DNA of 64,000 bases from Bathymodiolus brooksi. Its lineage: Eukaryota > Mollusca > Bivalvia > Mytilida > Modiolidae. The stretch covers positions 78,826,829-78,890,828 of the forward strand of contig OY804588.1 in the NCBI GenBank assembly GCA_963680875.1, written 5' to 3'. Shown here piece after piece: positions 1,821-63,100 of the stretch; position 1 is the first letter of the stretch; every line of letters starts with the position of its first letter. The notes under the pieces were generated by a model. The model did no database searches, was not told the origin of the DNA, and saw only the letters and a program-made list of their open reading frames with translations. Position numbers and translations under genes: made by a program.

Positions 1821-3394
1821 AACGTCTAAAATGGTTTGTAAAACAACACCAAGTACACAAAACAAAGTGATAAAGAATTAAACACTTCGTAGAATGACAA
1901 AATTTTCGTCCCACCGAGGGACTTTATCAATGTCTAATTAAATAAAATCTCGAAACAATATGGCGACTTTTCAAATTTCAAAAAAGTTTTTGACGGTCCA
2001 TGTACGGCACAAAAGAACCAGAAGATGCACATATGAAACTACATGCATAAAAGAATGGAAATCCTACATATAAATTAATAAAAGTACAATAACAATAATA
2101 TAAATATACAATAGGGCTACACATTTAAATAAATGTTAAATTAGAAATAAAAATAAATATAAAAATGAGACATTATTGGTAAATGTATCAAATAGCACTG
2201 TCAAAATATTGTTGAAAATGGTATGATACCCAAACTCATTCAAAAAAACGGCCCGCCACAGTGTGGAATATATACTTTGGGCCAATAGAGCAAACTGTAT
2301 GTCCTAATACGACTGGAGGAGATCAACACGAATAGGAGTCAAGAGAGGATATTACTTTTTCTCATTGATTCCATTCGGTGATAAGGTCTTAAGTTTTCTA
2401 ATCCAGAAGCTTTCCCTTTCCTGTCTGCTTTTATCATCCCACTTGGGGTTATGGTCAATTATGGTGACCTTCAGTTTGCCGAAAGAATCATGGTGGCCCG
2501 TCGATCTGAGATGTCTGCTGAGTGGAAGGTCAGGTTTGCAATTTGCATCGCTTCTGTGGCCATTCAAGCGTTTACTAAGTTGTTGTTTAGTTTCTCCGAT
2601 GTATTGAAGACTACAAATTGCACATTCCAGGAGGTAGATAATATTTTCTGTCTTGCAGTTGGCATTGCAGTATATGATGATTTTTTTCTCCTGTATGTGT
2701 GCTGCTGAATTTTTGTGTGCATTGGATGTTTTTGCACGTCATACATCGTCTCGAATCACATTTTTGACACTGACCATTGTAGGCAGATCGAGGGGAGATG
2801 TCAGCTCTCACCAAGATGTCTTTCAAACTTTTGGGTTTCCTGAAGGCCAAGACGGGTGGTTCTTTGAAGATTTTACACAGTTCTGGGTGTTTTTGTATGG
2901 TTGTCCAGTGCTCACGAACGATGCTGGATAAATTACTGAGCGCAGGATGGTATGTAATGACAAATGGCACTCTGTTGTTCGCGTTCTTTTCTTTATATTG
3001 GATGAGGTCTTTTCTGTCAATACCACTTGCTTTGTTAAAACAATGGTTAATGCTCGCATTGTTGTAACCCCTCTTTTTTAGATGACATTTCAGTTCCCCA
3101 AGCCGTTTTTTGGTGGTTTGTTCGTTGGAGCAGATGCGTTTGATTCGGAGAGCTTGGCTGTACGGAATACTTTTGGTGCAATGTTTAGGATGACAACTCT
3201 GTGGGGACAGGTACTGATGTTTATCTGTCGGTTTGTTGTATATGTCAGTTGACATAATACCATTTTCACAGGTGGTGTAAGTATCCAGAAAGGAGATGTT
3301 ATTTATAGATGTGTCATGGGTGAATTTTATAGTGGGGTGAACATTGTTGGCGTGGTCAAAGAAACGATTGAGGTTTTCTTCCGACTCGGTCCCA
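1821..3394 (-). pseudogene. 5'-truncated inverted PLE copy: RT C-terminus, Cys-rich linker, GIY-YIG endonuclease
   Basis: Read on the minus strand, coding sequence enters at 3394 just after the RT active-site region (first recognisable residues TESEENLNRFFDH) and continues through the RT thumb and the Cys-rich stretch CQKCDSRRCMTC. It then loses frame near 2690: an A-run has one extra base relative to the sister copy, so translation switches out of the endonuclease frame and terminates near 2611. The endonuclease frame itself is otherwise open to the TAA at 2352-2354. The lesion differs from that of the sister copy, which has a stop codon. The copy lacks both RT catalytic motifs and cannot be autonomous. 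3' UTR sequence occupies 1821-2351. Confidence 0.88.
1889..1938 (-). ncRNA. Hammerhead-like motif in inverted PLE arm
   Basis: Mirror copy of the motif at 6571-6617, with the same GTCCC/GGGAC stem and GAAA. It carries one change in the stem I side just after GTC (A for G). Same caveat about the degenerate first core element. Confidence 0.48.
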
Positions 3395-3423
3395 ATCCGA
3401 CCGATCTTACAGCTCTGCACATC

Positions 3424-6156
3424 ATGAGCTATGAATTTTATTTTAAAAAACTTAGAAAATTAACTCTTAAACAAATTAGTACAGAACATCACGTATCTAA
3501 TTTGCGGGCATATATTGCCAATAATATTATACCAAAAGGGCTACATATCAAGTTAACACCACAAAGCACTGGTTGGAAATCAAATAGATTTTTGGAACGA
3601 TGGGACTCTATACTCTTTGACTGTTCCACCCGTCTCCTTATTCTATTGTACCAGAACACTCTACACAATCTCGAGGTTCTGGATAAAACTATTACGAACA
3701 TCAAAACTGACCTAAACAAATCTTTGACGTTCTCGGATACCAACAATATTAACGAACGTCTGCAAGATATCCACAATATTCAAAGCCTAAAGTTGCGAGA
3801 GAAACAACGTAAGAAATTCTTTAGGGATGGTATCAACCCGAACAAAAATATACCATCAGAATTATCTGTCACTTCGGGGGAAACGACAAGGCGGAAGCGA
3901 AGATTTTCAAGACACAAAGAAATTAATAGAGACCAAAATGACACAGTCGTCAATTTGTCATCAAAAGATCTAAAACCTGCTGAAATTCGTATACTCTCTA
4001 AGGGACTTAATTTCTGCCCCACCCCCAACAAAATAAACGAGGAGCAACTATCAGCTGATCTCGACAAATTTGCTAGATCTCTTCGTATTAAAGAATATTT
4101 CTCAGCCAAAGAGAGAGACTGTCCTGTAGATGGGTCGTCCTATTCGGAAGATGATAATGAGATCCCCCTTCCTAGGTTTAAGAAAAAAAGTTCATGGATT
4201 CCAAAACCCAGCAAAAATACAACTTTAGAATCCTTTATTGATTTAGTCAAAAATGATGTCCAGACAGCAACCAGCACGAACATACCAACCCATAACAACC
4301 TCACTCCAGCAGAAAAAGGTGCGCTACAAGAATTAAAGGAAAGGGATGACATTGTCATAAAGTCAGCAGACAAGGGTAGCGCAATTGTTGTTATGGACAA
4401 AGTAGATTATTTAGAGGAGGCAAACAGACAACTGATGGATGAAAGATTTTACAAAAAACTGGACTCTGACCACACGGAAGAATTCAGCACTAAAATAACA
4501 CAGGAGCTAAAAATTATGAAAGAAAATAGTCATATCGACAAGTACACTTTCGATTATTTGAAACCAGACAAACCCAAAGTCGGACGCTTCTACCTATTAC
4601 CTAAAATTCATAAAGTCAACAACCCCGGGAGACCCATTGTTTCAGCAAATGGGCACCCCACTGAAAAAATATCCGAATTCGTCGATTTCCACCTTCGACC
4701 TCATGTAGAAGCGTTACCTTCACATTTGAAAGACAACACTGATTATCTTCAAAAAATGGAATCCATGAACCCCCTTCCTTCGGGGACCATTCTTGTTTCG
4801 ATGGACGTTACGTCATTATACACTAGCATCCCACATAATGACGGCATCGAAGCATGTCGAGAGGCCTGGGACCAAAGAGCCGTGACAGAACCACCAACGG
4901 AATGTCTTGTCCAGTTGCTCACATTGGTACTGAAGCATAACAATTTTACATTTAATGGAGAGCATTTTTTACAAATCAACGGAACAGCTATGGGAACAAA
5001 GATGGCACCTTCATACGCCAACATCTTCATGGGGAAACTTGAAAAACTTATCATACAATCTGCACCTCACAAGCCACTTTCCTGGTTTCGTTTCATAGAC
5101 GACGTTGACATGAAGTGGACCGAGTCGGAAGAAAACCTCAATCGTTTCTTTGACCATGCCAACAATGTTCACCCCACTATAAAATTCACCCATGACACAT
5201 CTATAAATAACATCTCCTTTCTGGATACTTACACCACCTGTGAAAATGGTATTATGTCAACTGACATATACAACAAACCGACAGATAAACATCAGTACCT
5301 GTCCCCACAGAGTTGTCATCCTAATCATTGCACCAAAAGTATTCCGTACAGCCAAGCTCTCCGAATCAAACGCATCTGCTCCAACGAACAAACCACCAAA
5401 AAACGGCTTGGGGAACTGAAATGTCATCTAAAAAAGAGGGGTTACAACAATGCGAGCATTAACCATTGTTTTAACAAAGCAAGTGGTATTGACAGAAAAG
5501 ACCTCATCCAATATAAAGAAAAGAACGCGAACAACAGAGTGCCATTTGTCATTACATACCATCCTGCGCTCAGTAATTTATCCAGCATCGTTCGTGAGCA
5601 CTGGACAACCATACAAAAACACCCAGAACTGTGTAAAATCTTCAAAGAACCACCCATCTTGGCCTTCAGGAAACCCAAAAGTTTGAAAGACATCTTGGTG
5701 AGAGCTGACATCTCCCCTCGATCTGCCTACAATGGTCAGTGTCAAAAATGTGATTCGAGACGATGTATGACGTGCAAAAACATCCAATGCACACAAAAAT
5801 TCAGCAGCACACATACATGAGAAAAATTCATCATATACTGCAATGCCAACTGCAAGACAGAAAATATTATCTACCTCCTGGAATGTGCAATTTGTAGTCT
5901 TCAATACATCGGAGAAACTAAACAACAACTTAGTAAACGCTTGAATGGCCACAGAAGCGATGCAAATTGCAAACCTGACCTTCCACTCAGCAGACATCTC
6001 AGATCGACGGGCCACCATGATTCTTTCGGCAAACTGAAGGTCACCATAATTGACCATAACCCCAAGTGGGATGATAAAAGCAGACAGGAAAGGGAAAGCT
6101 TCTGGATTAGAAAACTTAAGACCTTATCACCGAATGGAATCAATGAGAAAAAGTAA
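3424..6156 (+). pseudogene. Penelope-like RT + GIY-YIG endonuclease polyprotein, one in-frame stop
   Basis: A 910-codon frame from the ATG at 3424. An upstream ATG at 3316 lies in the inverted arm and is not native. The N-terminal third is basic and includes a PLE-like KGLNFCPTP segment. RT motifs follow: SADKGSAIVV, FYLLPKIHK, SMDVTSLYTSIP with Asp at residue 461, AMGTKMAPSYAN, and FRFIDDVD with Asp 559 and 560. After these come the RT thumb, the Cys-rich CQKCDSRRCMTCKNIQC region and, from about residue 815, a GIY-YIG-type nuclease (IYLLEC...LQYIGET, then NGHRS). A TGA at 5818-5820 cuts the protein between RT and endonuclease; the sister copy has a Gly codon (GGA) there, so this is a single-base nonsense change. 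In the family, RT copies the RNA at a nick made by the GIY-YIG domain. Otherwise intact. Confidence 0.92.
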
Positions 6157-26044: not shown

Positions 26045-27640
26045 ATATCTTACCCCAGCTCCTGGGTAAGACAAGCTACACGCCCTTATTACCGCAAAAT
26101 TGTTTTCCATTATTGAATTAAACTGTCGATTTATAGATATGCATCCGTGTCTTGGCAGTATTTTAAATGTATTTCACAATAAAATACAATGTATTTTATA
26201 AATATATTATATTATGCTACTACAACAGCGATAAATACCTGTAGAAATGTTATTTGGATAATATGAAGCAGCCGGCCGCGATACTGGTATTACCAGTATT
26301 GTAATATTTACAATACTAGTATTACCAGTATTATAATATTCACAATACTGGAAATACCAGTATTGCAAATATTACAATACTGGTAATACCAGTATTGTAA
26401 CACTGTACAATACTAGAAATACCAGTATTGTAATGTTACAATACTGGTAATACCAGTATCGTACATATACAATACTGGATGTACCAGAATCGTGCATTTA
26501 CAATACTGGAATACCAGAATCGTTGATCTATGCACAATACCGGAAGCTCCAGTATTCTTCATCCAACAATACTGGTAATACTAGTATTGTAAAACACATG
26601 ATACTGGAAGCTCCAGTATTCTTCATCCAACAATACTGGTAATACTAGTATTGTAAAGCACACAATACTGGAAACTCTAGTATTCTTCATCCAGCAATAC
26701 TGGTAATACTAGTATTGTAAAGCACACAATACTGGAAGCTCCAGTATTCTTCATCCAGCAATACTGGTAATACTAGTATTGTAAAACACACAATACTGGA
26801 AACTCTAGTATCTGGCAATTTGACACGAGTGGACAGAGCCTAATTCTAACTGTAAATCACAGCTCATTGTATTTACCGTTAGTATTAAGCTCCGTCCAGT
26901 CAGGTCAAATTACCTTACCAATATATATCAAACTCTAAGGGACCATACAAAATATTTTGACATTACAGGGCTTTTGCCTCTTATGTTACGTACAGCAGAA
27001 ATGACGTATGAGTATGAATTATATTCAATTCTTTTAGTATAATGTAGACATAAAAACTCGGGTTAACCAGAATTCTACCTAATCTTCCAATATCTGCAAT
27101 ACTGGTATAACCAGTATTTTCCAGTATCTGCAATACTGGTATTACCAGTATTTTCCAGAATCTTCCAGTATCTGTAATACTGGTATTACCAGTATTTTCC
27201 AGAATCTTCCAGTATCTGCAATACTGGTATTACCTGTATTTCCCAGAATCTTCCGGTATCTACAATACTCATATTTTGGCAATGACCAGTATTTTCTAGT
27301 ATTGCAGATACTGGAAAATTCTGGAAGATACTGGAATACTAGTATTTACCAGTATCTGTACCAGTATTGCAGATACTGGAAGATACTGGTAAAATACTGG
27401 TATTACCAGTATTGTGTACCAGTATTGTAGTATCAGTATCGCGGTCGGCTGCTTCATATTATCCTGTTATTTAATTGACTTTGGTCAAAGGGAGGTATTT
27501 TTTTTATTTACATTAGTTACTAACAAGGGAGAGCACTCTATATTTTCTCAAAGTAAGCAAATATTGACACGATATAGAAAGAGATGAGAAAAAGAGTCAA
27601 ACACCGTAAAAGGTGCAGGATTTTTTTTTTAACGTAGAAT
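26045..27640. repeat. Dispersed repeat copy A, split by an inserted element
   Basis: 26045-26255 and 27465-27640 together match 29298-29640: cttacccc(a/g)gctcc, gtaagacaagctacacgcc, ttggcagtattttaaatg, tacaacagcgataaatacct, then after the insert ttggtcaaagggaggta, gagcactcta and gtcaaacaccgtaaaaggtg. The insertion is described at 26256-27464. Confidence 0.88.
26256..27464. mobile_element. TIR element packed with ACTGGTA/TACCAGT palindromes, 8-bp TSD
   Basis: Terminal inverted repeats of about 31 bp begin GGATAATATGAAGCAGCC and differ at one position. The element is flanked by TGTTATTT at 26248-26255 and 27465-27472, an 8-bp target duplication. The sibling of the host repeat at 29470-29510 has a single gttattt and no insert, which supports insertion. 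The interior consists of two blocks (about 26280-26815 and 27090-27440) of short palindromic units such as caatactggtaataccagta. Between them lies a central region (26817-26925) that is itself an imperfect inverted repeat. No ORF is present, so the element is non-autonomous. An 8-bp TSD is typical of hAT elements, but the TIR start is not a classic hAT end, so the superfamily is uncertain. Confidence 0.85.
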
Positions 27641-29297: not shown

Positions 29298-29660
29298 TAT
29301 CTTACCCCGGCTCCAGGGTAAGACAAGCTACACGCCGTTTTTCCCGCAAAATTGTTTTCCATTGTTGAATTAAATTGTCGATTTATAGTGTCTTGGCAGT
29401 ATTTTAAATGTATTTCACAATAAAATACAATGTATTTTATAAAGATATTATAAATGCTACTACAACAGCGATAAATACCTGTAAAAAAGTTATTTGACGT
29501 TGGTCAAAGGGAGGTAATTTGTTTTTATTTACGTTAGTTACCTAACAAGGTAGAGCACTCTACATTTTCTCAACGTTAACAAATATTGACACGGGAGAAA
29601 GAGATGAGAAAAATAGGCAAACATCGTAAAAGGTGCAAAATTTTGTTATTGTAGAATCTA
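29298..29660. repeat. Dispersed repeat copy B (uninterrupted)
   Basis: Sibling of 26045-27640 without the inserted TIR element; gives the pre-insertion state (gtaaaaaagttatttgacgt at 29481-29500). A related short inverted pair, atgtaagacaag / cttgtcttacat, lies just upstream at 29224-29270. Confidence 0.85.
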
Positions 29661-43945: not shown

Positions 43946-44314
43946 TGTCCGAGAGGTAGAAGTGGTGTTTTTCCAAGAGCGAATTTTTTTTTTGAAATAA
44001 TGTGAAAAAAACACTTTTTTCCGAGGTACATAGTATGGCAACACATGGTTATGATATTGTGCTTCGATAGCTCTAGTGAAATATGTGACAATTGTGACAA
44101 TTGTGTGTAAAGAACAATTTTAATTTTGATTATATATACCTGGAGTTGGACATTGTTAAAAGGAACCCGGTGAACACTACTCACGAAATCAAAACAAAAT
44201 CAGGTATTGATAGGTAATATGTCCGCCATTAATTCTGTTTACATCTTGAATACACATTGATTTGTTTGGTGTGGACATTTTAGTTACATTGAAAGTAAAT
44301 TGACAATATATCAG

Positions 44315-45166
44315 ATGTCCAATAATCAATCGACCCCGATACAAAAACGACATATTCGCACTAGCAACCCTACCCCTCCTGAACGAGTAGACATAAAAAA
44401 GGCAAGATCCGAACCTTTCGATTCTCTGTCTGACTCTGAAACCAATTCCTCAAATAATAACGAGATGGCTGACGCGATTGAACTTGTACAACCTCTCTTA
44501 TCACAAAAGATGTCCATAACTGAAGAGGATATTATAAAAATATCCAAAGCAGTTAAGGCTGAAATACTTGCTGATATCAACAAACTCATACATGCAAGAA
44601 CAGAACCATTAGTCCAGAAAATTTAAAAACTGGAAATTGAAAATAAACAATTACAAAAAGACCTTGACGCACTGGAACAGTATGGACGCCGTAGTTTAAT
44701 TAGAATTTCTGGTTTATCCGAGCGTGCGACAGGAGATGAAACAACTACTGCTGTTCGTAAAATAATGTCTGAAATCGACCCAGACCACAAACCAGAAGAC
44801 GTCATCAGATCGCATTGGGTTGGTAAAAGTAGCGGTCCCCAGGTATCGCACAGAAAGCCCAGACAAATAATTGTCCGTCTGTCCGACCCATCAGTTAAAA
44901 TCAGACTAATGAAGTGTCGGAAAAACTTGAAGTCGTCAAGAGACCTTAAGTTTGTCTTCATCAATGAAGATCTAACTCACACTAGAAACAAAATATTTTT
45001 CTTAGCAAGACAACTTCAAAAGAACAAATCCGTAGAACAAGTGTGGACAACAAATGGCAACATTCGCCTGAAAGATAGCCACGGCCGAATATATGAAACG
45101 AACACAATAGATCGATTTCTACAGGTTGCAGTTCAACTAGATCCATCATATACCCTACCCGAATAA
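44315..45166 (+). pseudogene. LINE ORF1 protein, one in-frame stop
   Basis: A 283-codon frame from ATG 44315 (MSNNQSTPIQKRH). It has a Pro/Ser-rich N-terminus, then an acidic-basic helical stretch. After a TAA at 44624-44626 comes a coiled-coil-like KLEIENKQLQKDLDALEQYG and the segment RRSLIRISGLSE, the usual start of the RRM-like nucleic-acid-binding fold of LINE ORF1 proteins. It continues through QIIVRLSDPSVKIRLMKCRK and VFINEDLT, typical of the same fold. The frame is continuous across the stop, so a single substitution (for example from CAA, AAA or GAA) explains it. In the family this protein coats the element RNA. Confidence 0.78.
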
Positions 45167-47212
45167 TCTAGCTAACTGTTCATTAAATAAAATGACTTGT
45201 TGAATTGTTGACTGTTTATTTTCTAAATCTCTATATATATCAACAATGTAGTATGACCATACTTCAGTTGTTTTCTACTGTACTAATTATTACGTGTATC
45301 TTACATGTTAAACATAATTATTATATAGATATATAATATCGTGTATATGCATGATATGGTTACTCAGTTCGTTTACACTGTGTCGCGTAAACTTCTGTTT
45401 TACTCAGTTATTTGTATAATTTTTTTTTTTTTTATACACATGTACTCCAATTCCTGCGTTGTACTAAATTGGTTGACCTTTTCTCAGTAACCCTATTTCT
45501 TATCATCGTAAACGATGTGTAATATCGTACATGAAAGACACAAATGAATATTCTTTTACTACAGATATTCCGATTGAGCTGTTCAATTATTCCAAATATG
45601 GTCGTAATTGTGTAGTATTTAAATTAACGTACAATAATACTATAGTTTACAAGTATGAGTACCAACTCAACTTTAGTTCATTCATGAAAATCCTCCAATA
45701 AAAGTAGCTCACTTCTGTTTTGTAATTGGCTAACATTGTTATTGTGTGACCAACCTTGACCTTTTCAGTGCTGCGCTCGATTAGTTATGTTTGTTTACAA
45801 AAATACACCCCCCCCCCTTTCCCCAGCCGAGAGGTATACCATTTCTAAATACGTTTACACGTGAGTGTATACATGTACATAAGTATGGATATCCTCAAAT
45901 TGGTTTGTCGGCATATTGTAAATCGCTTAAATTATGTGGTCATTTTAATTATCCAGTTAAATCAGCTCAACCGCATCTTTGGATCTTGAATTGTTGACCT
46001 ATTAACTATAATTAGACGTTCTCACAGGTACATATATTTCATGTTTATTTATAACCCCAGCCTTTTCTAAATATCAAATTAATCTAAATATGTTAAATGA
46101 GTGTACATACATGCATAAGTACATTGTACATGTACATGTATGGCTATTCCTCAAAATTGTTCAGCTCAATTCATTGATAATGTCTTATGTCCACCAACTG
46201 GGAATTTGGAGTAGTGATTATTGATTGACCAGTTATTCCCGTCGTCGTAAGCTCAATGTAACATATAGTAATCTCAGATGTTTTTTTTTATATTTTTTTT
46301 ATTTAATAAGTCGTAAAGACAATGCAAGATAATAGTATTTTAATTTATGTACATTATAGTTAATGAATATAGTTCTACTGCAGTTGCATCAAAGATATTA
46401 AACCTGCACGTAAATGCCGCTTTAGCGTGCAATATTTCTATTGTGTACAAGCAGGCCGATTTACAAATGTAGCCCAATGATGAGAATCTCTCAATCGAAA
46501 CAGCTCAATTTACATTACTGGTTTGTAATTGGTTAACAGTGTAACCTCATTTTCTTCAGGGTGATCTACCTTAACCTTATCAATAAGTCTGCGCTCGATT
46601 AGTTCTATTTTGCTTATAAAAAATATATCTTGATACATGTACATGTATTTCTTATATTCTATTTCACATATTCTATGTTTTGTTTATGCTTGTTTGATTT
46701 TGTTTTTGTATATATGTTTTCGTTTCCATGCGTCGAGCGCAGACCTTACCACAAAAACCCCCCAAAAAATGTATCTTGATACATGTATTTCACATATTCT
46801 ATGTTGTGTATTATTTGTTTGATTTTGTTTTTGTAAATGTGTTTTGTTATAATTATGCACATACCTGATATTGTAAATTATTTCTTGCAACATGCTATAT
46901 TAATAATCCGAGCACCATAATCACACGTCCTAAAATATCTTAGGGAACATATTCGAACTTCGTAAATTCCGCATACATACTACAGTACCTCGTATCCTAC
47001 TTTCCATAATCACGTTAATATCCATAATATTGATCACTTACTTTTACTTCTTTTCTACGCACACCCTTTTTAATTTGTTTTGCACTATTCTCACAAATCC
47101 TTCAATGGTGAATCTGACATTGGTGACCTACTTATTGATTGAACTCCTAACCGATACTGCTCTCTCTCACGTTTTATTCGTGCTACATGTACCAACTGGT
47201 ATAACATGATTC
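45167..47212 (+). other. LINE inter-ORF region with duplicated blocks
   Basis: No gene. Blocks near 45700-45790 (ttttgtaattggctaac, ttgaccttttcagtg, ctgcgctcgattagtt) recur near 46515-46600, about 810 bp downstream. A second pair at 46625-46705 and 46765-46845 shares tatcttgatacatgta, cacatattctatgtt and tttgattttgtttttgta, separated by about 140 bp. Poly-T at 45420-45433 and poly-C at 45806-45817. It could be a repeated promoter region of the element. Confidence 0.5.
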
Positions 47213-50200
47213 ATGGGTACTGACGCGTTACAACACAGAGAGAGCATCGGTCGGTTCTATTGTTTAGCACGTACTGTTAAAAATAGTAAACGGCTAACAT
47301 TATTAGAATTTATAGGTATATATTTGTTTGTCATTCATGGTATTGTCGCGGTGCCTATTACAGTTTTTATTTTTTCGTTTCAATATAAATATCGCGTTAA
47401 CCTTTCAGGTAGTACCGTTCAAACTAGCGAACAATTAGTTAAATCAAAATCGCTGGAATATGTGAATAATTATGCCTTCTTGTGCATTGTGACGTGTATT
47501 TTGTTTATAATATCAGGAATAGAAATGAATCCTGGTCCCTCTGATTCAGACTTATCAAGTAGCTTCGGTAGTATCAGTTCAACTTCAACGACTGTAAGTA
47601 ATTTTATACATTATTCCGTTTCTTTTCTTCATTTGAATATTCAAAGTATTACACCAAAATTAGACCTAATAGCCGCAGAATACTCTTGTCATGAGATACT
47701 CTCATTTACGGAAAGCTGGTTGCGCCCTCATGTAAGTGACGATACGCTTAAAATTCCTGGATACAAATTTCCACCATTTCGACGAGACAGAGTAGGCAAA
47801 ATGGGCGGCGGAGTGGTGGTTTTTGTAAAAGACCATATCAACTGTAAGCATAGACCTGATCTACAAATAGAGAATCTTGAATGTATATGGCTTGAGATAA
47901 AAATCAAGAACAAAAAATACTTATATGGAACATTTTATATTCCTCCCAATAGCAATCTGCAAACTTGGGATGAACTAGACCAATCAATTGATCTGGCATT
48001 AAACAATACCCATGACATCATCATTACTGGTGATTTTAATATAAACCAATTAAGTGACAATCATAGGAACAAAATTAGTTCATTACTGACCCAATACAGC
48101 TTTCAACAGTTAATTACGGAACCCACTTACATGACTGAGCATAGCTCATCTTTATTAGATTTGGTTATGGTAAATAATCCCACGAGTGTTTTGTATACAG
48201 AAGTCGGCCCCCCCTTGTTGAACCAAGTAAGATATCATTTACCTATTACTGGTGTCCTAAATCACCCGACTATAGTCAATGCTTCATTTAAGAGGAAAAT
48301 ATTCCTTTACGACAAAGGGGACTATGAATCTTACAGAAATATCCTTTCTGTTGTTGACTGGGATGGAATCTTTAGAAACGACGACATTGATATCATAACT
48401 AATACTATTACAAACACAATTTTAGATGCAGCGAATAAAACTATTCCAAATAGATACATAACGGTAAAGAAAGATAATCCACCTTGGATCACTACAAAAA
48501 TAAAAAAGTACATACGCCGTAAAAATCGAATTCACAAAAAAGCAAAGAAAACCAATACTATCGGTCAATGTGAAAAATTTCGGAAAATTCGTAATAAATG
48601 TAATAAACTTATATTAAATGCAAAACAATCATATTTTGATAAAATTTCTGAAAAAATAAACACGGAGACAAACGGAAGTAAAAATTGGTGGAAATTAGTC
48701 AAAAGTCTTCTTCACAGTGATTCAGGTGGTGATCGATCTATACCGCCACTTCAAGTTGAAAATGACATGATACAAGACGATAACAAAAAAGCTGAATTGT
48801 TTAATGACTATTTTTGCAAACAAGCTGACCTTAATGATTCTGAAACCTCTGTGCCTGATATTACCGATATATTGATCAATGGTCTTGAACAAATTACTGT
48901 TACAGAAAACGAAATGGAAGATATATTGAAGATACTTGATACATCTAAAGCTATAGGGCCTGATCTGTTAAACCCTAGGCTCCTTAAAGAAGCAGCATCT
49001 ATACTTAAATATCCCTTATGTACACTGTTTAATTTATCATTAACACTTTCTACCTTTCCATCAGAATGGAAATATGCTAATGTGACCCCCGTTTTTAAAA
49101 AAGATTGTCCCAGTAACTTGAAAAACTACAGACCAATTTCCCTCATTAGTATACTTGCTAAGGTAATAAAGCGATTAGTCTATAAACATATTTATAACTA
49201 TTTGATTGACAATAACTTAATTACTTCCCATCAATCTGGTTTTACTCCTGGAGATTCTGCCGTTAATCAACTCCTGTACATCACAAATGAATTTGGTAGA
49301 GCGTTGGACGAAGGTAAGGAAGTTAGAGTTGTTTTTTGCGATATAAGTAAAGCATTTGACCGAGTTTGGCATAAGGGATTACTTCGTAAGCTTGAATCAA
49401 TAGGGATTAGAGGGTCATTATTATCATGGGTGAAAAACTACTTGTCTGAAAGAAAACAACGTGTCGTAATTAATAATTCAACTTCTAGTTGGCGTGACAT
49501 AAATGCTGGTGTACCCCAGGGGTCGATTCTAGGGCCTCTTTTGTTCATTGTTTTCATAAATGACATACTGACCGATATTAATTCGACTATAAAATTATTT
49601 CCCGATGACACTAGTCTGTACTTAATTGTAGACGATCCACAAGAAACAGCACAAACACTCAATGATGACCTAGTGAAATTACATGCATGGTCTACAAAAT
49701 GGCTGGTAAATTTTAATCCACAGAAAACTGAAACCATGACTATCTCTCGAAAATTAAATAAACCCAATCAACCTAACCTTATTATGAATAATATTATCAT
49801 TAGTACTGTTACTGAACATAAGCACATTGGACTACAACTTTCTGACGATGGTAATTGGAATAAACATATTGACATGATAACTAAAAAAGCATTCTCACGT
49901 GTTAACATTTTAAGGAAATTCAAATTTATACTGGATCGGAAAACTCTAGAAACAATTTATATTACTTTTATAAGACCATTACTAGAATATGCGGATGTTG
50001 TTTGGGATACCAAGACTCAAATACTAATTAACAAACTAGAAAATGTTCAGGTTGAGGCTGCTAGAATCGTGACTGGGGGTACCAGACTTGTATCCTTAAG
50101 TAATCTATATATTGAAACCGGGTGGGAAAAATTGAAAGATAGAAGGGAAAGGCATAGAACGATTCAATTTTATAAGATGTCAAATAATCTAACTCCTCAA

Positions 50201-50755
50201 TATCTTAGTAACTTAATTCCGCAAAATTTCGGCATGATCCATGACCACAATACTCGTCATACCTCACGTATTCCTCCAGTACGCACTCGAACATCGCTCT
50301 ACGCAAGCTATTTCATACCCTCCAGTGTACAACTATGGAACAAACAGCCAGAAAATATTAAATCAAGCAGATCTGTTCAGATAATTAAATCAAACCTTCA
50401 ACCCCAAAACAATACTAAACCCATTTATTATTATATTGGTACTCGACTGGGACAAATTTTACACGCTAGGTTGCGTATGCAATGCAGCTCTCTCAATCAT
50501 CACTTATTTCGTAAAAACATTGTAAATTCCCCATTTTGTCAATGTGGGGCAAAAGAAGCTACGGCCCATTTTCTGCTACATTGTCCCCGTCACAATGCAA
50601 CAAGACTGAGATATATTCACACCATTAATTTACCAATTAACTTAAATACGGATTTATTATTGTTTGGCTCTACAGACTTAACGAATACTCTAAATACAGA
50701 TATATTCTTAAACGTGCAGAAGTTCATCATAAGTAGTAAACGATTCACCTCCTAA
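47213..50755 (+). CDS. LINE ORF2: 2A-like motif, EEP endonuclease, reverse transcriptase
   Basis: An 1180-residue open frame from ATG 47213. The N-terminus has hydrophobic segments (about 29-55 and 87-100) and a 2A-like GIEMNPGP at 102-109, differing from the DxExNPGP consensus at its first residue. An endonuclease/exonuclease/phosphatase domain spans about 138-350: LNIQS (Asn 142), TESWL, GDFNIN (Asp 274) and LLDLVM. RT follows: NYRPISLI, QSGFTPGDS, FCDISKAFD (Asp 710), AGVPQGSILGP, and LFPDDTSLY with Asp 798 and 799 but Pro 797 where LINEs have Ala (FADD). A C-terminal Cys/His motif CQCG...HFLLHC lies at about 1109-1124. It carries out target-primed reverse transcription in the family. It is uninterrupted, but the A-to-P change at the active site may be inactivating. 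Confidence 0.9.
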   Translation: MGTDALQHRESIGRFYCLARTVKNSKRLTLLEFIGIYLFVIHGIVAVPITVFIFSFQYKYRVNLSGSTVQTSEQLVKSKSLEYVNNYAFLCIVTCILFIISGIEMNPGPSDSDLSSSFGSISSTSTTVSNFIHYSVSFLHLNIQSITPKLDLIAAEYSCHEILSFTESWLRPHVSDDTLKIPGYKFPPFRRDRVGKMGGGVVVFVKDHINCKHRPDLQIENLECIWLEIKIKNKKYLYGTFYIPPNSNLQTWDELDQSIDLALNNTHDIIITGDFNINQLSDNHRNKISSLLTQYSFQQLITEPTYMTEHSSSLLDLVMVNNPTSVLYTEVGPPLLNQVRYHLPITGVLNHPTIVNASFKRKIFLYDKGDYESYRNILSVVDWDGIFRNDDIDIITNTITNTILDAANKTIPNRYITVKKDNPPWITTKIKKYIRRKNRIHKKAKKTNTIGQCEKFRKIRNKCNKLILNAKQSYFDKISEKINTETNGSKNWWKLVKSLLHSDSGGDRSIPPLQVENDMIQDDNKKAELFNDYFCKQADLNDSETSVPDITDILINGLEQITVTENEMEDILKILDTSKAIGPDLLNPRLLKEAASILKYPLCTLFNLSLTLSTFPSEWKYANVTPVFKKDCPSNLKNYRPISLISILAKVIKRLVYKHIYNYLIDNNLITSHQSGFTPGDSAVNQLLYITNEFGRALDEGKEVRVVFCDISKAFDRVWHKGLLRKLESIGIRGSLLSWVKNYLSERKQRVVINNSTSSWRDINAGVPQGSILGPLLFIVFINDILTDINSTIKLFPDDTSLYLIVDDPQETAQTLNDDLVKLHAWSTKWLVNFNPQKTETMTISRKLNKPNQPNLIMNNIIISTVTEHKHIGLQLSDDGNWNKHIDMITKKAFSRVNILRKFKFILDRKTLETIYITFIRPLLEYADVVWDTKTQILINKLENVQVEAARIVTGGTRLVSLSNLYIETGWEKLKDRRERHRTIQFYKMSNNLTPQYLSNLIPQNFGMIHDHNTRHTSRIPPVRTRTSLYASYFIPSSVQLWNKQPENIKSSRSVQIIKSNLQPQNNTKPIYYYIGTRLGQILHARLRMQCSSLNHHLFRKNIVNSPFCQCGAKEATAHFLLHCPRHNATRLRYIHTINLPINLNTDLLLFGSTDLTNTLNTDIFLNVQKFIISSKRFTS

Positions 50756-54631: not shown

Positions 54632-54825
54632 TTGTAACAAAACAAACAGGTGAAATCCGTGACAGGTATACCATTTTGACAAAGCATGTTAACGTGGTAT
54701 TCCGATGATCATAATTGAAAATAAAACCTCTGGATGATCTTGGAAGACTATTGATCTTACAAAATAAATAGAAATACAGTGTATATATACTTACCATGAC
54801 TATTTTCCGCAACTAAATCCCAATA

Positions 54826-55112
54826 ACCTAAATACTGTTATAGTAAAGTAAGAACTATTTACACCGTACTGTAGTTCTTACTTATCGTATAGCCTAAATA
54901 CTGTTATATTCAAGTTAGAACTATTTACACCGTACTGTAGTTCGTTCTTATCGTGCAACCTAAATACTGTCGTGGTAGAGCAAGAATTATTTACACCGTA
55001 CTGTAGTTCTTACTTATTATGTAACCTAAATAATGTTTTAGTAAAGTAAGAACTATTTACACCGTACTATAGTTCTTTCTTATCGTTCAACCTAAGTACT
55101 GTCTTGCTGAAC
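54826..55112. repeat. 66-bp minisatellite, left block
   Basis: About four units of taacctaaatactgttatag taaagtaagaactatttaca ccgtactgtagttcttactt atcgtg. The same array resumes at 56690 after an EN-less PLE-like copy. Confidence 0.9.
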
Positions 55113-55138
55113 ACCTGTCTTTCCTTCATGACAAATAA

Positions 55139-56485
55139 GTTATTGTCTCCGCCGACAAGGCCCCTAATAATATTGTTTTTGTGTGTAAATCACATTACAA
55201 TGACTGGTTGTTAAAGGAATTAGGTATTGATAATTCACTTGGCAACCCTACATATACCCCGACGACACTTACGAAAGAGGAAATCCTGGACAATCATAGG
55301 TTTGTTTTATGTTCCTTTGGAATTTCAACCAAAGATGAAGAACTAGATCTACCATCAGTCTACTGGATTCCTAAATTACACAAGTGTCCTTTCAAACAGC
55401 GCTATATTGCTGGGTCTGCCAAATGCACCACCAAACCTCTTTCTAAATTATTAATATGTATTCTACCGGCTGTCAAAACCAGGCTTCAGAGTTACTGTGA
55501 CCCTAGCTACTCGAGAGGTGGTGTGAATCAGATGTGGATTCTGAAGAACTCGAAAGATCTGTTAGAGTACATACAATCCAGGTCCCTCTCCTCCTGCAAT
55601 AGCATTAAAACATTTGACTTCTCTACCCTTTACACGACTATTCCTCACTCTAAGCTGAAGGACAAATTAAAGGAGTTGGTACAATTGTATTTCATAAAAA
55701 TGAATGGCCAACGTCGATACAAATAGCTTGTGCTAGGAAGAGACATATCTTATTTTGTAAAACACCACTCTGATTCTACCAAAAAGTTCTCTGAAACTGA
55801 TATCTTCAACATGCTCGAGTTTTTGATTGACAACATATTTGCTATGTTTGGTGGACGTGTATTTCAACAGACAGTCGGCATACCTATGGGTACAAACTGT
55901 GCTCCTCTTCTCGCCAACTTGTTCCTTTATTCGTATGAGGCAGACTTCATACAGGGGCTTCTCAAGAAAAACGAAAAGAAGCTAGCCCGATCCTTTAATT
56001 TCACGTTCCGCTATATAGATGATGTCCTTTCACTAAATAATTCTAGGTTTGTTGATTTTGTTGATCGCATCTATCCCATTGAGCTTGAAATAAAGGATAA
56101 CACAGATACAGATAGGTCTGCTTCATACCTTGACCTACACATCGAAATCGACAGTGGGGATCGGTTAAGAACGAAACTTTACGACAAAAGAGATGATTTC
56201 AATTTTCCCATTGTGAACTTTCCATTTATATGTAGCAACAATCCAGCAGCACCTGCATATGGAGTATATATCTCTCAAATGGTAAGATATTCCAGACCTT
56301 GTGGTTCCTATCAGGATTTCCTTGGTAGAGGGTTGCTGCTAAAAAGCAAGCTACTGAACCAAGGGTTCCTTTTGGTAAAGTTGAAGTCATCAATTCTAAA
56401 ATATTACGGTCGCCATCATGACTTGGTTGACCGTTATGGAATATCTGTGTCACAAATGACCACGGATATGCTCCACTTATCGTAA
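55139..56485 (+). pseudogene. EN-less Penelope-like RT, 5'-truncated, one stop
   Basis: The best copy of the family. The frame opens in mid-protein at VIVSADKAPNNIVFVCKSHY after a TAA at 55136. It continues with YWIPKLHKCPFKQRYIAGSA, SYSRGGVNQMWILKN and FDFSTLYTTIPH (catalytic Asp in motif A). A TAG at 55724-55726 then sits just after GQRRYK, probably a former Tyr codon. The same frame resumes with LVLGRDISYFV, GIPMGTNCAPLLANLF, the intact FRYIDDVLSLNN, YLDLHIEI, LYDKRDDFNFPIVNFPFICS and RYGISVSQMTTDML. The RT blocks (ADK, WIPKLHK, DFSTLYTTIP, YIDD) are Penelope-like, but no GIY-YIG follows the RT. Copies at 13.0, 18.4, 25.2 and 30.5 kb belong to the same family. Confidence 0.85.
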
Positions 56486-56689
56486 GCACTTTCCGGTCCT
56501 TTTCTCACTCACGACTTATTACCGGGTGGAGCAGGAACTGCATACCCTCCCGGAGCACCTGAGTTCACCCCAGTTTTTAGTAGGTTTCGTGTTACTCAAT
56601 CCTTAGTCTTATGTGTATGTTTTGTAGATCGTTGTTTGTCCTTTTGTTCTTCTTCGATATACGAATTCTGATTGCCCCTTGGTATCTTC
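56486..56689 (+). repeat. Reference 3' tail of the EN-less PLE-like family
   Basis: ccggtccttttctcactcac, gacttattaccgggtgg, agcaggaactgcataccctc, ccggagcacctgagttcacc, gttactcaatccttagtctt, ttgtagatcgttgtttgtcc, cgatatacgaattctgattg, ccccttggtatcttcaaact. Used to recognise fragments elsewhere in the window. Confidence 0.8.
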
Positions 56690-57275
56690 AAACTCTTCTT
56701 GGTAAAGTAACAACTATTTACACCGTACTGCAGTTCTTACTAATCGTGTAACCTAAATATTGTCTTGGCAAAGTAACAACTATTTACGTCGTACTGTAGT
56801 TCTTACTTATCGTGCAACCTAAATATTGTCTTGGTAAAGTAAGAACTGTTTACACCGTCCTGAAGTTCTTACTTATCGTGCAACATGAATATTGTTTGAG
56901 TAAAGTAAGAACTATTTACACCGTCCTGAAGTTCTTACTTATCGTGCAACATGAATATTGTTTCAGTAAAGTAAGAACTATTTACACCGTACTGTAGTTC
57001 TTACTTACCGTGTAGCCTAAATATTGTCTTAGTAAAGTAGCAACTATTTACACCGTACTTTAGTTCTTACTTATCGTGTAACCTAAATATTGTTTTAGTA
57101 AAGTAAGAACTATTTACATCGTACTATAGTTCTTAGTTATCGTCTAACCTAGATACTGTTTGAATAAAGTAAGAGCTATTTACACCGTACTGTAGTTCGT
57201 ACTTATCGTGTAACCTAAATATTGTTTTAGTAAAGTAAGAACCATTTTCTCTGTACTGTAGCTGTGCTTGTTAAA
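56690..57275. repeat. 66-bp minisatellite, right block
   Basis: About nine units of the array seen at 54826-55112. The most similar neighbours are those near 56880-57000 (gtcctgaagttcttacttat). A single degenerate unit also occurs near 53300-53360. Confidence 0.92.
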
Positions 57276-59178: not shown

Positions 59179-61212
59179 TTAACGTGTGTCAAGTTCGATA
59201 GCCTGATGATATGCATGGGCAGCTGATTCATAATTTCTAATAAGTGCATAAGATACTCCAAGACAGTTGTACGAATTAGCTCTATGTCTATTATTCAATA
59301 TGAAATAATCTTCTGATATTGTTATTTGAAGATCTGCTAGTACGCTTAAACACCGGGTTACATTGTTCAGGTGATAATAGCAGAGAAAGCGTATGAAATG
59401 TGAATATACTACAGGTGGTAGAGAATGACCACCATTGCCAACTTTTAATTCTAACTCTTCAGGAATCAATGTAGATTCTTGTGCAAATTCAACACATCTA
59501 ACAAGTAATAGTTTTAATACACGTGTTATACTCATACTTTGTATCGTTCTAGTTTTGATTAATGCACATTGTTCGTTAGATAAGTTCTTTTGATAGAAGA
59601 ATTTTTCTGTTGTACACTTTGATACTGCATATGATACAATATTAAGAGCCGTATTGTAATGTTTCATCCGGTAGTAAAACGAGGCCAACATTAACCAACC
59701 TGACACAGAATCGTGATGTATGTTGTACAGTAGGTAACTAAGACACGTCCGGTATTGATTGAACTGGGTTTTGTTTTTATTACGACCACCAACAGATATT
59801 TGTTGTGCTGTACTATTATATTTCCTAGACATTACAAAATGCAAATATGATTGTAATCTTGGTGACTGACAAATGCTAGTAAGAGATATTTTGTTGTCCC
59901 CTGCTTGAATTGGTAAATGAACTGCATTTGTATGTAATATACCTTTGATATATTGCGCTCTTTCATCGCTCGCGGAAAGTGTGTTGTTACTCATCACTCG
60001 ATATTTTGATAGTTGCTTAGACATAAGTATACAACGCCATCCGTAACTGTACAATATCTTTAAACGTTCTAATAAGACTTGTCGTTCATGTTCTTCTATT
60101 TTATTCTCAAACATATTAATTTCCGGAATGAAGTAATGAGGACACATTGAATATTCAACACAATAAAGCAGTCTTTCAAAACATCTCATGAAACTATATG
60201 TCAGATTTTCAGGTCGCCATATTGATAACGGTAATTCTTCTGATACCCAGAATATAATATTTTTTATATAATATGAACAAAGAAGACCTTTACAGTCATC
60301 GTCGCTATCAATAACGTCTTTTAATAAAATTTTCATGAGAGCATAACAAATCAACTGTACGTGAGTGAAAGAGCATATCAATAGTTTTTCTCCTACAGAG
60401 AAAGAAAAACGCCATTCAATATCTTCGTTTTTAGATCCTTTACATCCGATTGGAACAAAGAGTATTCCGTGATCTATTATCTTAGACTTTAACTCACTAC
60501 TCGGCCAGGAGGTGTTAGGTCTTGTTACCCATTTGTGAGCAGGTGATATCCATTGTCTTGAATGAAAACACAATGCATGATCAAATTGATCATCTTTGTC
60601 AGACACACACGGACCGTGAACATGATGTAATGCAGCAGGTTGTTGTTGTGATGTTGAAATCAACCGTGTCTTCAAGAGCTCATTAGACAAATACATATAA
60701 TTGACTAATTGTTTACAACAGGGTAAAATAACAGCGTGGTTACATTGAACAAGTCGAAGATGAGTAAAACCAAGTTTACAGTCGTCCATATCCATAACAA
60801 AAGACGTTTCTCTAGAATTAAGTCGTACCTTATTAATGTCCTCATACACATGTACATTAGAGAAAACATACATTAAGTCTACGTCACTCCCCTTCATCTC
60901 TAGTCCTTCACCAAAACTTCCACTTGTTATTTTAATATAGTTTTTATAGATTGACAGATTGTCTCCGATTGTATTAAACGTTCTCTTTGTCTTTACCGTT
61001 TCTTCACTACCAACAATATGACGACATACAAACTGATACAATGACAAAGATATATCTCGTGGTGTGATGTTGCCTACAATAAAAAGCGAAATAAAAGAAG
61101 GACATGTGATTATTGTATACTTGTTCTTGTCATATACATAACCAAAAATACTGGTCAATTGACGTTAAACAACATACTTAAAGAATATAGAAAAAAAAAT
61201 ACCTCGGAACAT
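59179..61212 (-). CDS. Mab-21/cGAS-like receptor (cGLR) with C-terminal TPR-like region, two exons
   Basis: Exon 1 (61212-61203) supplies ATG TTC CGA G. A 129-bp intron (GT at 61202, pyrimidine-rich TTTTTATTGTAG, AG at 61074) precedes exon 2 (61073-59179). Joining in phase 1 gives MFRGNITPRDIS and a 634-residue protein; an in-frame TGA lies five codons upstream of the ATG. Near the start the nucleotidyltransferase signature is GSFGEGLEMKGSDVDLMYVF, with GS at 55-56, Glu 59 and Asp 67/69. The Mab-21 helical half follows. The C-terminus (about 485-634) carries TPR-like helices, e.g. YRMKHYNTALNIV and CLGVSYALIRNYESAAHAYH. Active cGLRs sense nucleic acid and make cyclic dinucleotides for STING; catalysis and ligand here are inferred only. 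The third acidic residue was not assigned. The reading beyond 61074 toward 61158 is intronic. Confidence 0.85.
61074..61202 (-). other. Intron of the cGLR gene
   Basis: GTATTT donor after CGAG; acceptor TTTTTATTGTAG. Phase 1. The intron is open in the downstream frame, so a naive reading would start upstream of the true exon 2. Confidence rests on splice-site quality and on the joined reading frame. Confidence 0.75.
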
Positions 61213-61627
61213 GATGCAAAAATTTCAGTCACTCAGTTGTGGTTTGATCAATTGTTCATAAAATAAATATGTTTCATAGCTGTTAGATAGCCTATGTTTA
61301 TTTACAAAACCAATGTGACCTCTCGTTGTGACAGTAATACAGTCCACCAACAGAGGTATCATCACAGTGACAGTAACGGTATTACTGTGACAATTCGTTA
61401 GTGTGTCTAGCAAGGACTGGAACGGTGCTACTTGTAGAAATGCATGTATACAGAGGGCTGTTATATATATCTATTTAAATTCAAAGGTAAAATATTGACA
61501 ATAAATCAGAACATTTCAGATTGTTAGCGAATTATGTCAAATTTGGTTGACAACATACATACAGTCTGCTAAGCTACCATTACATAACAGCATATAAAAC
61601 ACAACTCAGCCATCATCTACAGACCTG

Positions 61628-63090
61628 ATTATATGACAAGACAATTACGCACTATATTTTTCCTACCTGATTATGTGACAAGACAATTACGAACTATATG
61701 TTTTCCTACCTGATTATATGACAAGACAATTACGAACTATATTTTTCCTACCTGATTATATGAACAGACAATTACGCACTATATTTTTCCTACCTGATTA
61801 TGTGACAAGACAATTACGAACTATATGTTTTCCTACCTGATTATATGACAAGACAATTACGAACTATATTTTTCCTACCTGATTATATGAACAGACAATT
61901 ACGCACTATATTTTTTCTACCCGATTATGTGACAAGACAATGACGAACTATATTTTTCCTACCTGATTATGTGACAAGACAATTTATGCACTATAGTTTT
62001 CTTACCTGATTATATGACAAGACAATTACGAACTATATGTTTTCCTACCTGATTATGTGAAAAGACAATTACGAACTATATGTTTTCCTACCTGATTATA
62101 TGACAAGACAATTACGCACTATATTTTTTCTACCCGATTATGTGACAAAACAATTCTGAACTATATTTTTCCTACCTGATTATGTGACAAGACAATTTAT
62201 TCACTATAGTTTTCTTACCTGATTATATGACAAGACAATGACGAACTATATTTTTCATACCTGATTATATGAACAGACAATTACGCACTATATTTTTCCT
62301 ACCTGATTATGTGACAAGACAATTACGAACTATATGTTTTCCTACCTGATTATATGACAAGACAATTACGAACTATATTTTTCCTACCTGATTATATGAA
62401 CAGACAATTACGCACTATATTTTTTCTACCCGATTATGTGACAAGACAATGACGAACTATATTTTTCCTACCTGATTATGTGACAAGACAATTTATGCAC
62501 TATAGTTTTCTTACCTGATTATATGACAAGACAATTACGAACTATATGTTTTCCTACCTGATTATGTGAAAAGACAATTACGAACTATATGTTTTCCTAC
62601 CTGATTATATGACAAGACAATTACGCACTATATTTTTTCTACCCGATTATGTGACAAAACAATTCTGAACTATATTTTTCCTACCTGATTATGTGACAAG
62701 ACAATTTATTCACTATAGTTTTCTTACCTGATTATATGACAAGACAATGACGAACTATATTTTTCATACCTGATTATATGAACAGACAATTACGCACTAT
62801 ATTTTTTTTACCCGATTATGTGACAAGACAATTCTGAACTATATTTTTCCTACCTGATTATGTGACAAGACAATTTATGCACTATAGTTTTCTTACCTGA
62901 TTATATGACAAGACAATTGCCAATTATATTTATCCTACCTGATTATGTGACAAGACATTTACGAACTATATTTTTCCTACCCGATTATGTGACAAGACAA
63001 TTGCCAACTTTATTTTTCCTACCCGATTATGTGACAAGACATCTACGCACTATATTTTTCCTACCTGATTATATGAACAGACAATTACGT
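61628..63090. repeat. 41-42-bp satellite with a 509-bp higher-order duplication
   Basis: About 35 units of ctgattatatgacaagacaa ttacgaactatatttttcct a. Variants (gaacagacaa; cccgattatgtg; tttatgcac; tatgttttcc) occur in the same order in 61761-62269 and 62270-62778; these two 509-bp blocks look identical. The following units start the same way and then diverge. Lies about 400 bp upstream of the cGLR start codon. Confidence 0.95.
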
Positions 63091-63100
63091 ACTATAAGAC

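Follow-up and report, generated by a model that had tools for sequence, protein, structure and literature searches.

What kind of transposon is built almost entirely of short palindromes, and do the palindromes serve it? The question is raised by a 1,209-bp element at 26256-27464 of a 64,000-nucleotide stretch of the Bathymodiolus brooksi genome (assembly GCA_963680875.1, contig OY804588.1, positions 78,826,829 to 78,890,828), the whole of which is here called the window. An earlier note, made from the sequence alone, had taken the element for a non-autonomous DNA transposon, and for a hAT-like one because of the 8-bp target-site duplication (TSD) around it. The first part of that description is supported by the many copies sharing its terminal inverted repeats (TIRs) and TSDs; the second is not borne out, as the GG ends and a PF12762 Merlin transposase in a longer relative place it elsewhere. 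The element is very probably a non-autonomous internal-deletion derivative of a cut-and-paste transposon of the Merlin superfamily, and its palindromes more likely than not form recognition arrays.

Structure of the element

The element has 31-bp inverted ends and is flanked by the duplication TGTTATTT, exact at 26248-26255 and 27465-27472 (both forward strand), as the earlier note had it. Both termini read GGATAATATG, starting 5'-GG (GGAT), and the two TIRs (26256-26286, forward strand; 27434-27464, reverse strand) are identical save at position 20; under a looser definition the inverted repeat reaches 38 bp at 92%. It is clear that the ends are not paired by chance, since an 18-bp end pattern allowing three mismatches has 2 matches in the window where 0.02 are expected, and a 22-bp pattern allowing two mismatches has 730 and 758 matches on the two strands of the genome (2.0-Gb assembly, 136 contigs) and none when reversed.

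The left TIR consists of an outer 25 bp and the beginning of the first palindrome half-site. The left array (26281-26811, forward strand) comprises 17 palindromic units, ATACTGG-(4-5)-CCAGTAT, at a step of 31-34 bp; the units are 18-19 bp long with at most one mismatch per half, and every period of the block holds one. The right array lies within 27073-27433 (reverse strand); its inner part is made of 44-bp units, which give way to irregular ones near the end. A higher-order periodicity of 64 bp in the arrays indicates tandem duplication. Between them, next to the left array, is a unique stretch (26812-27016, forward strand) whose first 101 bp, 26812-26912, form an imperfect but single hairpin (DNA z -7.2); the layout of two palindromic blocks around an inverted central region is thus as first described. 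Ten open reading frames of at least 40 codons overlap the element and the longest, of 57 codons, runs out of it; the element itself has no long reading frame.

A Merlin parent and its deletion derivative

The genome was searched for PF12762 (the best 150 of 226 candidates were scored and 30 loci fetched). At three loci (L051, L053 and L064) the element's end and left array are followed by the same unique stretch and then by a transposase gene on the opposite strand. A further locus, L087 on contig C19, is the one complete copy, of 7,261 bp, with the same ends, arrays at both ends and the 8-bp TSD GATGCTTC on both sides; it is the transposase-bearing relative that had been sought. Positions 1-761 of the window element correspond to the left end of L087, including the unique stretch from its left interior, positions 762-823 to L087 5463-5524 and positions from about 818 to 1209 to its right end. 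Because the element aligns in this way to a left end, a 62-bp scrap of the middle (27017-27078 of the window, forward strand, with a deletion junction on each side) and a right end (27073 onwards), its identification as an internal-deletion derivative of this Merlin relative, with two junctions, appears near certain.

The transposase of this family (family A) matches PF12762 at 74.6-78.3 bits in L087, L081 and L082 (cut-off 27), and a frame of 310 codons is open in L081 and L082. An unnamed public protein, P0001, is 97% identical to it over 310 residues. The AlphaFold2 model of P0001, built on an alignment of 42 of 120 listed homologues, has a mean predicted local distance difference test score of 94.5, and its residues 140-297 match DDE integrase cores. 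Across these 42 homologues the catalytic residues D152 and E255 are invariant and D217 is at least 90% conserved; the motifs IDES, SDQW and IE-YW are present in the open frames of family A. All 42 also have three N-terminal cysteines in common, and at least 90% of them keep a fourth. These four cysteines, together with a match to Zn_ribbon_recom below the Pfam cut-off, point to a predicted N-terminal zinc ribbon. Zn_Tnp_IS1595 is absent from the Pfam matches at E up to 0.1; passages of PMC8101967 describe earlier Merlins as lacking this domain and report it from a few proteins. A sequence search found no solved structure related to the family-A transposase, and a fold search, in which the N-terminal domain was not searched separately, returned general DDE cores only.

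The derivative is far more numerous than the transposase core. The first deletion junction, allowing three mismatches, has 231 + 256 = 487 matches in the genome, and 35 bases taken from the core of the family-A transposase have 10 + 10 (control 0 for each), the latter being a count of the stretch and not of whole genes; at 487 junction copies to 20 transposase-core copies, one founder dominates. Elements were also collected without selection for similarity, as 17 exact TIR pairs no more than 1.4 kb apart among 100 listed end places, all on contigs C1 and C2 (an eighteenth pair, C2:40840144, was already in the similarity-chosen set described below). The junction is present in 13 of the 17. The other four (L088, L091, L095 and L100) have other internal structures, at least three in number, and still carry arrays at both ends. 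Apparently, then, a few coding copies have supplied some minor derivatives and one that has been highly successful.

The left array has 23 units in L087 and 17 in the window copy, and 11-21 in the 13 junction-bearing elements. The palindromes thus came down from the parent, and the number of units is still changing. The earlier proposal that the body of the element grew by palindromic expansion holds for the variable unit number only; the arrays themselves were already there, and longer on the left, in the parent.

Position of the half-site across Merlin families

The genome holds other Merlin families, whose transposases are 36-56% identical (alignments of at least 200 residues). In all 23 listed ends of types B, C and D, of which 22 are distinct (L070 and L079 overlap), with L059 and L060 having the same sequence and family C represented by L048 alone, ATACTNG begins exactly 25 bp inside the end. 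The family-A half-site is at this offset in 107 of 118 ends, duplicate loci being left out. As a control, of 299 occurrences of GGAT in the window just one is followed by a half-site at this distance, and that one is necessarily the element itself. After GGAT, the outer TIR of family A has 8 of 21 positions in common with family B, 9 with C and 10 with D; among themselves B, C and D share 16-18 of 21. Since the half-site has kept its offset while the outer TIR of family A agrees with the others at 8-10 positions, the outer TIR has, judged from these ends, changed far more between families than the half-site. An initial view that the outer TIR of family A is unrelated to the others was dropped in favour of "strongly diverged" in the light of this residual similarity. 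In family D the halves read ATACTCG/CGAGTAT; the half-site at a fixed distance, with its sixth letter varying between families, is a candidate recognition code for Merlin.

Within the left arrays, units differ from each other by 3-9% in their half-sites as against 38-47% in their middles and spacers; for the outermost seven units the values are 0-7% and 31-42%. The 7-mer ATACTGG, on either strand, is found 7 times in the 62.3 kb of the window outside the element, compared with 30-34 times per 3.4-kb array locus at three family-A loci.

A half-site held 25 bp from the end across families, and half-sites conserved where spacers diverge, together suggest that the palindrome ATACTGG-n-CCAGTAT is probably a recognition site for a transposase dimer and that the arrays are amplified sites aiding end finding and pairing. 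Transposase from the few coding copies would bind the derivative in trans, a dimer occupying the palindrome whose first half-site lies 25 bp inside the ends; the 17 left units and several right units would help it to locate and pair the ends, after which it would cut at the GG termini and insert into AT-rich targets. Array length would shift through expansion and contraction of the repeats. More tentatively, at slightly under even odds, the Merlin-lineage transposase may be aimed mainly by the palindrome 25 bp inside the end, which would have outlasted the outer TIR; family A would have multiplied this palindrome to about 17-23 on one side, and the inherited catching array would have let one derivative reach some 490 copies, against some 20 of the transposase core.

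Alternatively, the arrays may have no function in transposition, being a palindromic minisatellite that expanded inside a Merlin by slippage or unequal exchange and was carried along. This we regard as unlikely, though it is the strongest of the rivals. It would account for the spread of 11-21 units among 13 elements sharing a single junction and for the 64-bp periodicity, and Merlin families with internal tandem repeats have already been reported in the parts of PMC8101967 consulted. Further, after insertion the half-sites decay almost as fast as the spacers. A passively carried repeat would not, however, explain a half-site at a fixed distance from ends whose outer TIRs have strongly diverged, conservation of half-sites between units with diverged spacers, or the arrays at both ends of the four unselected elements that lack the junction. 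The two are compatible: the arrays could have grown by slippage and their units still be functional.

Several observations weigh against the arrays being recognition sites, or against parts of that proposal. The variation of the unit number among mobile copies, from 11 to 21, implies that no specific number is needed. The right end of family A begins not with a palindrome but with a direct half-site, the first half-site is missing at offset 25 from 11 of the 118 family-A ends, and in family C the two halves mismatch, reading ATACTTG and CGAGTAT. Families B, C and D are similar in their outer TIRs, so that their shared offset is one observation and not three, and common descent accounts for part of the offset shared with family A, which is weakly similar to them. 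The half-site comparison located units with one mismatch allowed per half-site, which favours conserved halves (the left block is nonetheless tiled without a missing period), and it omitted one 18-bp unit and the right array. Mutation across 39 insertions is nearly flat, at 0.0091 in half-sites, 0.0122 in spacers and 0.0159 in the outer 25 bp; this is the pattern of decay after insertion, is of little help and is not used as support. Finally, the transposase frame of L087 is open over 271 codons only, these covering the catalytic domain. With these points included, the balance still leans towards the arrays functioning in recognition.

It is very unlikely that the palindromes act instead as RNA, with read-through hairpins feeding small-RNA silencing or shielding the element. 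The dense hairpin folding proposed in the earlier note is borne out by computed folds of both RNA and DNA, the left block folding far above shuffled sequences (z -21.4 as RNA, in a long nested structure, and -18.8 as DNA), but strong folding is expected of any palindromic array and is not counted as a sign of function; nor does a role in RNA predict a fixed distance from a DNA end.

Other Merlin loci in the genome

A family-B end pattern has 276 + 276 matches in the genome (control 0); of the exact ends listed (100), many form pairs some 0.8-4.5 kb apart and several lie to either side of PF12762 matches, which together indicate that a second large Merlin family, B, is present. At G000:C3:50984600-50988800 (L079, L070) one family-B Merlin (TIR GGATCTCCTGTACTTGGCGATC, TSD AAATATTT) sits inside a relative of the window element that bears the family-A end; L079 had been considered as a more distant family-A transposase, which was rejected, the transposase being that of the family-B Merlin (TIR GGATCTCC...) inside the family-A relative, and L079 therefore does not serve as a link. 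A scan for inverted repeats gave L067 as the sole convincing further pair of Merlin ends, and L073, also considered, seems to be transposase sequence duplicated in opposite orientation. Among the 30 PF12762 loci, L049, L050 and L073 have neither a B/C/D-type end nor a close family-A end, L054 is a family-A gene with no array within the fetched stretch, and L062, L066 and L068 resemble family B with no TIR found within five mismatches.

Copies and insertion sites

The element sits in a dispersed host repeat. The empty sister site reported near 29.48 kb is confirmed: a copy of the repeat at 29298-29660 (forward strand) lacks the insert at about 29488-29495, and the flanks of the element, joined with a single TSD, align to 29.30-29.63 kb, where they are 86-89% identical and a gap of 4 bp falls at the insertion site. 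Among the best 40 of 2118 candidate places in the genome, 41 matches at 91-97% to the 207-base joined flanks were obtained; all 41 cross the insertion point (query bases 101-108) unbroken, and 37 span from base 1-3 to base 203-207.

A BLAST-type search with the element gave 2975 candidate places, of which the best 40, the window copy included, are all near full length, 94-100% identical and spread over 12 contigs of 86-162 Mb. This similarity-chosen set comprises 39 element pairs from 39 loci (L019 and L027 yielded none and L028 three). An exact 8-bp TSD flanks 23 of the 39, and six more have one with a single mismatch. Among the 17 unselected elements 16 have an exact 8-bp TSD and L096 has one of 9 bp. 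Pooled, 41 of 56 have exact TSDs (39 of 8 bp, two of 9 bp) and 15 do not. The empty sites of insertions with 8-bp TSDs, 36 of them distinct, share a symmetric preference of about TA-RAATATTY-TA. Median divergence from the consensus is 1.1% for the 39 copies (window copy 1.4%); the set is therefore young, its members having also been chosen as the most similar.

Membership of hAT or P, as a miniature inverted-repeat element, can be set aside almost entirely: an 8-bp TSD fits, though it is common to several superfamilies, but hAT elements have CAG-type termini and a hAT transposase, while these ends start GG, which with 8-bp TSDs points to Merlin; two TSDs are of 9 bp, permitted for Merlin; and PF12762 loci with the same ends were found, the full-length L087, in which Pfam finds no hAT or P domain, refuting it.

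At L028 (G000:C13:28383000-28391000) three copies lie within 6 kb with common flanks, reversed right-end pieces being near two of them; the locus reads as a local duplication of an insertion. This triple copy, together with groups sharing a TSD (L012/L017/L037 and L033/L040/L043), fits spread by segmental duplication or as a satellite rather than by transposition, a reading already refuted for the bulk of copies by the number of different empty sites with exact 8-bp TSDs (36) and by the 12 contigs of the best 40 copies, leaving it next to no probability overall. Thus neither an absence of other copies nor confinement of the TIRs to a larger duplication, the outcomes named beforehand as counting against a transposon, was observed.

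Other features of the window

A scan of the window against Rfam at gathering scores gave no match. Tandem arrays lie at 29-1777 (20-bp unit, about 88 copies) and 61623-63096 (42-bp unit, about 35 copies). An 855-codon frame with a reverse transcriptase domain occupies 2352-5820, its C-terminal part being repeated inverted at 2352-3459. A stretch at 44261-50755 resembles a long interspersed nuclear element: endonuclease and reverse transcriptase domains lie in a frame of 1,181 codons, which is accompanied by two shorter frames. At 54823-57261 reverse transcriptase fragments (55139-56485, the second below the Pfam cut-off) lie between two arrays of one 66-bp repeat, a layout that we take to resemble the terminal repeats of a Penelope-type element. 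A 660-codon frame at 59179-61161 has a Mab-21 C-terminal domain and TPR repeats.

Comparison with known systems

The element belongs to an ordinary superfamily and is of unusual form, in that it derives by deletion from a large Merlin and carries palindromes that are amplified and locked in position. En/Spm and Ac/Ds have repeated motifs in the subterminal region, outside a short TIR, and give rise to deletion derivatives with the ends retained. Family A is like them in both respects and differs in superfamily, motifs and TSDs.

For Merlin, passages of PMC8101967 give GG termini, TIRs of 24-462 bp, 8- or 9-bp TSDs and a DDE_Tnp_IS1595 transposase. The GG termini, 31-bp TIR, 8- or 9-bp TSDs and DDE_Tnp_IS1595 transposase of the full-length copy agree with these IS1016/IS1595 relatives, and internal tandem repeats are noted in some Merlins in the same passages. 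Family A differs in its long palindrome arrays at both ends, in the zinc-ribbon-like four-cysteine motif at the N-terminus of its transposase and in size, the full-length copy being 7.26 kb compared with a mean of 1,635 bp for three curated mollusc Merlins in the part of PMC10294476 consulted. A search of the titles and abstract openings of open-licence papers found none on conserved subterminal palindromes in Merlin, and in titles, abstract openings and passages how Merlin transposases find their ends was not met as a worked-out question.

The closest parallel for the arrays is Galileo, of the P superfamily, in whose ends several repeats are bound by the THAP domain of the transposase, according to passages of PMC3688188; Foldback TIR repeats can also seed satellites (Tetris, PMC4079207). 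Family A resembles Galileo and Foldback-like elements in the internal repetitiveness of its ends and differs in superfamily and transposase, and in that its strict TIR is only 31 bp and its arrays, which have the unit in common but step by 32 bp on the left and 44 bp on the right, are not one long inverted repeat. By analogy, the best reading of the arrays is that they would be amplified transposase-recognition sites as in Galileo. If so, they would be the Merlin counterpart of Galileo's binding arrays, and the natural series of 11-21 units on one founder makes it testable whether the number of binding sites drives the success of a non-autonomous element.
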